NCBI GenBank assembly: GCA_018333515.1
Contig: JAGXSZ010000006.1
Coordinates: forward strand, 1-64,000
Direction of reading: 5' to 3'
Source: Actinomycetota bacterium
Lineage (GTDB): Bacteria > Actinomycetota > Aquicultoria > Aquicultorales > Aquicultoraceae
Length of the DNA stretch: 64,000 nucleotides
The notes under the pieces are model-generated. The model searched no databases, was not told the DNA's origin, and was given only the letters and a program-made list of their open reading frames with translations. Each line of letters opens with the position of its first letter. Positions within the stretch are counted from its first letter, which is position 1. The translations under genes and the position numbers were made by a program. Positions 12,137-14,748 of the stretch are shown here, in pieces.

Positions 12137-13216
12137 CTATTGGGCTAGGGCCATCTCAAATCGTGCTTTTTCCTTGATCTTTTGGATATGGGCATCGGTA
12201 AGTTTTCGCTCAAAACTCCGCAACCCCGCCAACTTAAAGCCGTGCTTCTCGGCAAAACCGTTTATCTCGCGGATTTTATCGACGCTTATATCTTTACCGA
12301 GCGTATAGTTCTCATAGCGCCCCTCCAGGGAGAGAATCATGGTCTCGGCCATACACGCGAGCGCCAACCGCTTAGGAAGGCCGAAATTGAAATTGAACTC
12401 GACATGCCCGGGCACCTCGACCACGCCTCCGTCGATTACCAAAACATCGGGTCTCGCCCTGACGACCAGCTCGGCAACGTCGCGCGGTCTAGCCACATCG
12501 CAGACGACGGCTCCCGCTTTTATAATCTCAGGCTTGATTATCGCATCCGCTGCTCCCGTTACGGTGATGATAATATCCGCCGAGCTTATCGCCGTGAGCG
12601 ATGTGCTCACCTCGAGCGAACCGACCTTGCCCGCAAGCCGCGCGGCGAGTTTGTCGAGTCGCCTCTCATCCCGCCCGATAAGCGTCAAGCCGCCGACCTG
12701 CCCGGCGAGTATCTCCGCGCATGCGCTCCCTATCGAGCCCGTCGCTCCGACAACCGCCAGCCGAGACACGGCCAAATCTATCTCCATTTTCCGCGCCGCC
12801 TCGAGCGTGCCTTCGATAGCCGTCGCTATCGTGTAGGTGTTACCCGTCGTAATGGGAACCTTCGAGATTTTCGCCACTTCTCTACCGCCATCACCGGGGA
12901 TTGCGGTAAACGCGCCGAGCCCGACGATTTTCGCCCCCTCTTTTCTCCCGACTTCGCAGGCTTTGGCTATCTTTTCGACGACATACTCTTGTTCCAGGTC
13001 GAAGAATTGGTTGGGCAAGAACGGGACGACTATGAACCAGCCGGCGGCAAGCTTGCCGGTTTGCGATTTTATGCCGGTAATCTCCGAAATCACAAACGGT
13101 TTGCGCCTTTTGAGGACGCTCCCGATTACGCGCGGCGAAATCTTCTTGGCTATCTTATATTTTTTTGCCACGTCTTCGATGTCCATCGGATGTATTAAAA
13201 AACCAAAAGTCTCCAT
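12137..13216 (-). CDS. Acyl-ACP reductase-like (AAR family) NAD(P)-dependent protein
   Basis: A 359-residue protein (start at the second in-frame Met, 13216, after GGGAG; an upstream ATG at 13243 lacks an SD). It resembles cyanobacterial long-chain acyl-ACP reductase along its whole length: the N-terminal FGFLIHPMD, GLGAFTAI, TTGNTYT, Rossmann motif VVGATGSIGSA (about 155-165), DGGVVEVPG, and the segment RLALACMAETMILSLEG whose cysteine (C288) lines up with the acyl-thioester cysteine of AAR. Automated pipelines often call it shikimate/quinate dehydrogenase. I infer reduction of an acyl thioester to aldehyde. It is third in an operon with two partners; no aldehyde-deformylating oxygenase is nearby. 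Confidence 0.85.
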   Translation of the reverse strand: METFGFLIHPMDIEDVAKKYKIAKKISPRVIGSVLKRRKPFVISEITGIKSQTGKLAAGWFIVVPFLPNQFFDLEQEYVVEKIAKACEVGRKEGAKIVGLGAFTAIPGDGGREVAKISKVPITTGNTYTIATAIEGTLEAARKMEIDLAVSRLAVVGATGSIGSACAEILAGQVGGLTLIGRDERRLDKLAARLAGKVGSLEVSTSLTAISSADIIITVTGAADAIIKPEIIKAGAVVCDVARPRDVAELVVRARPDVLVIDGGVVEVPGHVEFNFNFGLPKRLALACMAETMILSLEGRYENYTLGKDISVDKIREINGFAEKHGFKLAGLRSFERKLTDAHIQKIKEKARFEMALAQ

Positions 13217-13274
13217 CTCTTCTCCCTGCGCCAAACAAATCATTAGTTCTTCATCGACTATGCTGTCTATGCTG

Positions 13275-14180
13275 TCAGTTCAGTCGTTCGATTCTCGGTT
13301 TGAAATCGAGCCTCTTAAGAAGCTCTAAATAATCCTGTGCTTCGACCTCTTCCCACTCTTTACCCAAAAGCGCCAAGAAGGCCGCCTCCAGCACATTCGT
13401 CCCGAACGAGCGGCCCTCAAAGACCGGCGTGGTCGTAATTAGCAGCTCGACTCCGCGCCGCTTCAAGTCCGCGACATCGTCCGCGGTGGTCGTGTTGGTC
13501 AATATCCATTTACCCTTAAGATTCGCGGGCATATATTTTCTTATAAACAAATAGTCGCCGGCTATGATATCCGCTTCCTCGTAAAAGCGCGCATACTTCT
13601 CGTTCGACTCCTGCTCTTGCTTGCTTCCCGTCGGATACAACAACTTAAAGGGCATTCTGGTGACGATCGGCAATACTATCTTTGCGATTCTCGTAAAATT
13701 GTCCATCGTCCGGATAGGAAGCGGTATGTTCAGGCCGAATATCAAATCGCCGAATATCATCCTCGAACCCTGTAGGTCGATTGCTTGGGCCATCCCAAAA
13801 CGGTCGACCGCGCTGACCATCAAGACCGTCTTATCGGAAAAAGACAGCCCGGCGTCCTCGACCAGATAACGGACCGTCTCGCGCTCCAAAGTGTCTTTAA
13901 GCCCACTTCCGTCGACGACCGGAGTCTCCTTGACGACATTCTTGAGTTTTTGCGCATCGCGTATGGCATAACGCCGGCCATCGGCAACGAGGTACAAATC
14001 GATGCCGCCGAGGCCTATCGCATCGACCTTGCCGTCGAGTTCACGCAGAACCTCCATGGTCTTTTTCATGTCCCCATCGGTCCCGAGGCGCTCGATTGTC
14101 ATTCGTTCACCAAGAAGCTCTAGTTCAACTCTATGGTTTCTTTTTGAAGACCCCAAACTTGCGCTTACGACTCGTTTCAA
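13275..14180 (-). CDS. Uncharacterised protein of the 'quinate 5-dehydrogenase' label family
   Basis: A 301-residue soluble protein. I recall close relatives in Clostridia annotated as quinate 5-dehydrogenase, without biochemical support known to me. Visible features are MKRVVSASLGSSKRNHRV at the start, GLGGIDLYL, a DGSGLKDTLER loop, a Rossmann-like stretch (KTVLMVSAVDRFGMAQA) and ITTTPVFEGRSFGTNVLEA near the C-terminus. The start is TTG at 14180 with GGGAGGGGG 7 nt upstream, inside the last 50 nt of the regulator gene, so it is translationally coupled. It always seems to travel with the acyl-ACP reductase-like gene, suggesting a joint pathway; its own reaction is unknown. Confidence 0.8.
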   Translation of the reverse strand: MKRVVSASLGSSKRNHRVELELLGERMTIERLGTDGDMKKTMEVLRELDGKVDAIGLGGIDLYLVADGRRYAIRDAQKLKNVVKETPVVDGSGLKDTLERETVRYLVEDAGLSFSDKTVLMVSAVDRFGMAQAIDLQGSRMIFGDLIFGLNIPLPIRTMDNFTRIAKIVLPIVTRMPFKLLYPTGSKQEQESNEKYARFYEEADIIAGDYLFIRKYMPANLKGKWILTNTTTADDVADLKRRGVELLITTTPVFEGRSFGTNVLEAAFLALLGKEWEEVEAQDYLELLKRLDFKPRIERLN

Positions 14181-14718
14181 GGCTCGGCCCCCTCCCGTCG
14201 GTAATGCTTTCCAGCAGATCGCATAAGACCTCGGGCTTTACCTTCTTATCTTTTTTGATGGGAGAGTTCCCCAGCGGGACGCCGATTACCTCGCGGTCGA
14301 GGATTTTTTCGAGCATAGCGATGCGCTTATCCGACGCCAGAAAGACGACCACATCGAAATCTTTGAGACTCGCCAAGAGTTCGAGGAGTTCATTGAATAT
14401 CTCCGCGCCGCTCCGCCTCAGCACATAGTCCTTGCGCTCTTTTTCGCTCAAGAAATAGACGAGGTCGACCGCGAACTTCCCCGCGACCGACTCCAGCTCT
14501 TCTTTATTGGCTAAAGGAAAGCCGATGACGGCGATACGGTTTCCCCGCCGAACTTCCCCCAAGCCTTCGAGATGCGATACGAAGGCCCTCTCGACACCGA
14601 GCGAGAACGCGACCTCCTGCTGGGTCGCCCCGACGGCACGGCGATTTAGGATCTCGCCGATGATATTTGAAAGCCTGTCGCGGTCGACTATTTTATCGCC
14701 GATTCTGAGCAGCTTCAT
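14131..14718 (-). CDS. Helix-turn-helix regulator of the acyl-reductase-like operon
   Basis: A 195-residue protein starting at ATG 14718 (AAGGGG SD; an in-frame upstream start at 14748 would lie in the operator). Residues about 15-60 form a helix-turn-helix region (RAVGATQQEVAFSLGVERAFVSHLE) like XRE-type repressors. The rest, with VDLVYFLSEKER and FDVVVFLASDKRIAMLE, looks like an alpha/beta sensor domain but I cannot name it. It is first in the operon and its promoter region carries two palindromes, so autoregulation is likely. Confidence 0.8.
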   Translation of the reverse strand: MKLLRIGDKIVDRDRLSNIIGEILNRRAVGATQQEVAFSLGVERAFVSHLEGLGEVRRGNRIAVIGFPLANKEELESVAGKFAVDLVYFLSEKERKDYVLRRSGAEIFNELLELLASLKDFDVVVFLASDKRIAMLEKILDREVIGVPLGNSPIKKDKKVKPEVLCDLLESITDGRGPSLETSRKRKFGVFKKKP

Positions 14719-14726
14719 CGTTCCCC

Positions 14727-14748
14727 TTGTGCACAATTTTGTGTACAA
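14727..14748 (-). promoter_or_regulatory. Tandem palindromic operator
   Basis: TTGTGCACAA (14727-14736, a perfect palindrome) and TTGTGTACAA (14739-14748, TTGT/ACAA half-sites) sit 12 bp centre to centre, directly upstream of and touching the SD of the HTH regulator gene. Binding here would block initiation of the three-gene operon. The identity of the binder (probably the adjacent regulator) is inference. Confidence 0.7.

Follow-up and report, generated by a model that had tools for sequence, protein, structure and literature searches.

We analyzed a stretch of 64,000 nucleotides (hereafter, the window) from a deep-branching actinomycetotal genome of 2.33 Mb in 40 contigs, whose nearest named relatives belong to Candidatus Aquicultor (Actinomycetota). 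Three genes, all on the minus strand, form a compact operon in the window, in the order HTH regulator, Q5D (the middle protein, which the preliminary description labeled quinate 5-dehydrogenase) and a reductase resembling acyl-ACP reductase (AAR). The features are as follows.

14131..14748, minus strand: HTH regulator whose C-terminal domain resembles a sensor (open reading frame; homologues of 33-91% identity lie upstream of Q5D in most relatives)
13275..14180, minus strand: Q5D, uncharacterized, 301 aa (open reading frame; 25 of 199 genomes of the phylum; Q5D-AAR fusions; profile similarity to AAR)
12137..13243, minus strand: AAR/PigE-TR-type acyl-thioester reductase, 368 aa (open reading frame; family scores; residues)
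14727..14748, no strand: operator in the form of a composite palindrome, TTGTGCACAATTTTGTGTACAA, after the -10 box and before the ribosome binding site (RBS)

The HTH and Q5D genes overlap by 50 bp, and 31 bp separate Q5D from the reductase gene. The same gene order was found in many genomes, with 45-93% identity and at a fixed site between coaX/htrA and greA-lysS-clpC that is kept across the class. Because this arrangement recurs in a fixed place at such identities, the three open reading frames are real genes. The operon is real, conserved and regulated.

The dedicated HTH regulator reported in the preliminary description was borne out, and members of its family gave weak matches to the HTH_31 and HTH_3 Pfam models. 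The two operators ascribed to it, however, proved to be the halves of the one composite palindrome. Shuffling gave an expected count of 0.00 for this palindrome in the window, and it is the sole such site in the 2.3-Mb genome when up to two mismatches are allowed. It is conserved in relatives of families f1, f2, f3, f5, f6 and f22, upstream of the HTH gene, just after the -10 box and before the RBS. Counted from TTG, the HTH open reading frame has 205 aa, and this TTG falls inside the palindrome; the true start is likely the ATG at 14718, behind AAGGGGA. We also observed that a TTG start would put the operator in frame, in which case the annotated N-terminus MYTKLCT would be an operator artefact. 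The HTH protein is predicted to repress its own operon via the composite palindrome, and it probably senses a metabolite of the pathway.

Next to the regulator and Q5D, the preliminary description had placed an AAR-type reductase outside cyanobacteria, matching cyanobacterial AAR along its length. The family assignment held, while the nearest relatives turned out to be the thioester reductases of PigE and TamH. The reductase matched the PigE model NF053554 with 201 bits (E 2.8e-59, over residues 13-358) and the cyanobacterial AAR model TIGR04058 with 131 bits (E 4.5e-38), which falls well below the curated cut-off of 449.7 bits for the latter. Its best PDB sequence matches were PigE (4ppm, E 4e-34) and SeAAR (6jzq, E 2e-30). 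Since the reductase is closer to PigE/TamH than to cyanobacterial AAR, its type of reaction is already known, contrary to the earlier impression that it was not. In the tree it took no firm position among the reductase-aminotransferase fusions.

Residues 48-340 of the reductase align with SeAAR 38-338. The dinucleotide loop GATGSIG (residues 166-172) corresponds to SeAAR 162-GATGDIG-168, the catalytic cysteine C297 to SeAAR C294, and the residues of the NADPH 2'-phosphate site, R189, R193 and R314 in SeAAR, are R191, R195 and K317 here. Both GATGSIG and Cys297 were invariant in an alignment of 19 homologues (A2), and Cys297 was also present in all rows of the SeAAR-anchored alignment; loss of the cysteine was thus not seen among these relatives. 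A true shikimate dehydrogenase was considered and rejected for this gene product, because the shikimate dehydrogenase (AroE) models reached only E 3e-5, versus the E value given above for PigE. The genome's own Shikimate_dh_N protein is a separate one, on contig C5.

The similarity to SeAAR along its length and the shared catalytic residues would also suit an AAR of the cyanobacterial type in a route to alkanes, where an unconventional partner replaces the aldehyde-deformylating oxygenase (ADO). Several results make this highly improbable. ADO requires oxygen, and sulfite-reductase-like genes described below suggest that the host is an anaerobe. The ADO family had no match in the whole genome, while the S. 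elongatus control gave one, so that the earlier statement that no ADO is near can be widened to the genome. The PigE model outscored the AAR model, as noted. Furthermore, of the ADO-docking residues of SeAAR, R73, R79 and K80 (PMC7089970), two of three are not kept, the corresponding residues here being E84, E90 and K91. With no ADO and changed docking residues, an ADO-type alkane pathway was rejected.

We also considered whether the substrate of the reductase is a small thioester or that of an amino acid, as in a pathway for amino acids or cofactors, rather than a fatty acyl chain. Two points would fit this: the fold is related to that of glutamyl-tRNA reductase and shikimate dehydrogenase, and the location between coaX and greA is a conserved housekeeping one. 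However, the thioesters used by its closest characterized relatives carry medium or long acyl chains (PMC9594044, PMC8341465, PMC7089970), and the SRPBCC family linked to it (see below) has a hydrophobic-ligand fold, which makes a small substrate quite unlikely.

The coupling of Q5D to the reductase, proposed earlier from the operon, was reinforced by co-occurrence and by natural fusion. Of 199 genomes, 25 have Q5D and 21 of these have the reductase too, whereas 6 genomes have only one of the two; in a larger draw Q5D was present in 47 of 397 genomes, counting two distant fused forms. These Q5D-reductase fusions, in two f14 genomes (L185:8633-10828 and L186:8606-10933; 731 and 775 aa), have a divergent Q5D as the N-terminal half (E 1.8e-26 against the Q5D profile) and a reductase with the loop and the cysteine as the C-terminal half. 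Q5D also occurs without the reductase in f5 and f28, yet one f5 genome (G343, locus L199) has a reductase gene after Q5D, and the reductase occurs without Q5D in G084 and G098. Q5D is therefore not strictly a subunit and, since it occurs without the reductase, may also act independently. Two variant loci were observed as well: in G084 (L123:8673-10364) the HTH gene is directly followed by the reductase gene, with no Q5D at that locus and none detected in the rest of the genome, and G018 carries tandem duplicated Q5D genes (L047:8489-10428).

Q5D had no match to any Pfam family or PDB sequence, no plasmid match, and no shikimate dehydrogenase Pfam match in any of 27 members. An AlphaFold model built from two near-identical sequences, those of the window and one relative, had a pLDDT of 36 and was discarded. 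Using narrow profiles, a first hhalign comparison of Q5D with AAR was not separable from controls, and the result improved only with more diverse families. The enlarged profiles of Q5D and the reductase were colinear over 251 columns with a score of 33.1 (P 0.0015), at an HH-suite probability of only 7-23%. This match is weak, with P about 0.001-0.005, and is to be read against maxima of 26.3 for 300 column shuffles and 24.7 for unrelated control families. The match of Q5D to the AroE profile was weaker (27.5 over 61 columns, P 0.0074). In the Q5D-reductase alignment, Asn262 stands opposite the catalytic cysteine and SAVDRFG takes the place of the dinucleotide loop. Judged by these comparisons, Q5D appears to be kin to the reductase and not a quinate dehydrogenase, and moderate evidence makes it a probable Cys-less paralogue and partner of the reductase.

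A candidate for the next enzyme came from gene neighborhoods. In families f2, f4, f6, f9 and f43, genes for a class III aminotransferase (AT) and an SRPBCC protein (Polyketide_cyc) lie between Q5D and the reductase. This arrangement was seen at eight loci of the first sample (L040, L041, L043, L044, L045, L051, L054 and L055; the SRPBCC genes of L045 and L055 were placed by separate searches), to which the larger draw added L190, L197 and L198. In the window's family the two genes lie apart from the operon; the window's own genome has them on contig C30 (AT ~303752-305035, SRPBCC ~305054-305509). In the 199-genome phylum sample, top-tier AT (at least 702 bits, the next being 492) and top-tier SRPBCC (at least 119 bits, the next being 70) were confined to one identical set of 18 genomes, and in the rows listed the two genes lie side by side. 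Every genome of this set (most of one class, plus f9 and f43) has the reductase, with a Fisher P of 2e-21 that is inflated by shared ancestry. The relatives of the reductase on Proteobacterial plasmids are, with few exceptions, fusion proteins with a class III aminotransferase, and both domain orders occur; no relatives were found on viral contigs. An AT-reductase fusion of ~1400 aa on a Leisingera plasmid (L138:3609-7796) has several hundred more residues past the reductase.

These results suggest, with fair confidence, that the next enzyme after the reductase is the class III aminotransferase, acting with the SRPBCC protein. The earlier expectation that the aldehyde has another fate than ADO is thereby given a named enzyme. 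It is possible, though doubtful, that the window's clade does not aminate the aldehyde. The reductase and Q5D would then make up a pathway complete in itself (such as one from acyl-ACP via fatty aldehyde to alcohol or a wax/ether lipid precursor), and the AT pair would serve separately as an enzyme of polyamines or amino acids. Such a pathway would agree with the tree, where the type A reductases (window, f3, f8 and f22), whose loci lack an aminotransferase between the genes, form one clade (support 96/93), and with the good scores of the aminotransferase against putrescine aminotransferase models. Families f3, f8 and f22 have the reductase and Q5D but no SRPBCC, and their aminotransferase is of the second tier only (453-488 versus at least 702 bits), so that the amine step may not be universal. 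However, each of the 10 sampled f1 genomes has the reductase together with an AT-SRPBCC pair encoded at another locus, and across the 199-genome sample the pair was never seen where the reductase was lacking. The PigE model also matches the aminotransferase (E 7e-126).

The operator was absent from the AT-SRPBCC loci that were fetched (L116-L129), including the pair of the window's own genome, and the idea that the pair belongs to the same regulon as the operon was therefore rejected. At four of these loci (L117:12580-14928, also L118, L126 and L127), the pair adjoins genes for two NIR_SIR proteins and a Pyr_redox/Fer4 protein. The two NIR_SIR proteins look like dissimilatory sulfite reductase subunits, which suggests an anaerobic host.

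Altogether, our preferred reading, held with moderate confidence on sequence comparisons, is that the operon encodes the reductase half of a split PigE/TamH-type fatty-amine module (acyl-ACP to aldehyde to primary amine), with Q5D as partner and a self-repressing HTH regulator. In the first step, which is strongly indicated, an acyl chain would move from acyl-ACP (or acyl-CoA) onto Cys297, and the resulting thioester would be reduced with NAD(P)H, probably NADPH, to release the aldehyde. In the second, the class III PLP aminotransferase encoded on C30 would turn the aldehyde into a primary amine, and the neighboring SRPBCC protein would bind or shield the hydrophobic chain. Q5D, probably a paralogue of the reductase that lost the catalytic cysteine and dinucleotide loop, would be its structural partner and act as a non-catalytic subunit or as an allosteric or channeling half. 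Under this proposal, a reductase family otherwise read as a misplaced alkane enzyme acquires both a reaction and a partner, and the natural fusions link the uncharacterized Q5D physically to the reductase.

A long-chain alkylamine is also found in the phosphoglycolipids of Thermus and Deinococcus, where it is amide-linked to glyceric acid (PMC3398001, PMC3035268), a biochemical parallel only; the enzymes that form the third hydrophobic chain have been treated as not identified in Thermus (PMC9636437). By analogy, the reductase, class III aminotransferase, SRPBCC protein and Q5D might be the proteins, so far missing, that form the alkylamine of phosphatidyl-N-glyceroyl-alkylamine-type lipids, a signature of Deinococcus/Thermus. 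Aquicultoria would then make related lipids, with a second CDP-alcohol phosphatidyltransferase attaching the head group. We regard this as a rather unlikely extension. Downstream of AT-SRPBCC, the window's family carries such a second gene (PF01066; L116:10673-11236), whose product scored below the cut-off of the ClsA and PgsA models, and the housekeeping PgsA sits elsewhere, beside rimO-like and cinA-like genes; the PF01066 gene may be an ordinary cardiolipin synthase, so it is a hint only. Matches to TIGR04058 were obtained in Thermus composti and Deinobacterium chartae, but also in M. jannaschii, and may be only Rossmann matches. Finally, a family "annotated as quinate 5-dehydrogenase" was found in all 33 Deinococcus genomes of one survey, is present in Thermus, and was named as probably important and uncharacterized (PMC9425974); it is a candidate for the Q5D family solely through the name given in the preliminary description. 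If the amine is a membrane component, the genes described here become candidates for the synthesis of alkylamine lipids.

Among characterized systems, PigE of the prodigiosin MAP pathway (NF053554, PDB 4ppm) is similar in combining a thioester reductase of the same family, with its catalytic cysteine, and a class III aminotransferase. PigE reduces and then transaminates its thioester (PMC8341465), and the same sequence from thioester to aldehyde to amine is proposed here. Unlike PigE, which is one TR-AT polypeptide from an antibiotic cluster, the present system would consist of separate genes, with SRPBCC, Q5D and a dedicated HTH regulator, and no secondary-metabolite genes were seen near its reductase or aminotransferase genes. 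These two genes are adjacent in sister families and apart in the window's own genome, whereas they are fused in PigE and TamH. The AT-TR fusions TamH (tambjamine) and KecF (koreenceine), with a domain order opposite to that of PigE, have the same two activities as proposed for the separate genes here: supplied with C12-ACP, L-Glu and NADH, TamH produces C12 amine, and with TamA it converts C12 acid to C12 amine (PMC9594044), while KecF is predicted to reduce and transaminate likewise (PMC6498172). TamH is NADH-specific, whereas the NADPH 2'-phosphate site of the window reductase still has its three basic residues. With cyanobacterial AAR (TIGR04058, SeAAR 6jzq) the reductase shares the fold family, the GATGxIG loop, the catalytic cysteine and the basic NADPH-site residues; it differs in its score relative to the model cut-off, in the missing ADO and docking residues, and in its linkage to Q5D and an aminotransferase. 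GluTR-GSAM (HemA-HemL), an analogy already drawn for PigE (PMC8341465), likewise pairs a Cys-thioester reductase with a PLP enzyme to which the aldehyde is channeled, although GluTR uses a tRNA substrate and belongs to a different family. Relative to these systems, the chemistry is known, and the gene architecture and the Q5D partner are new.
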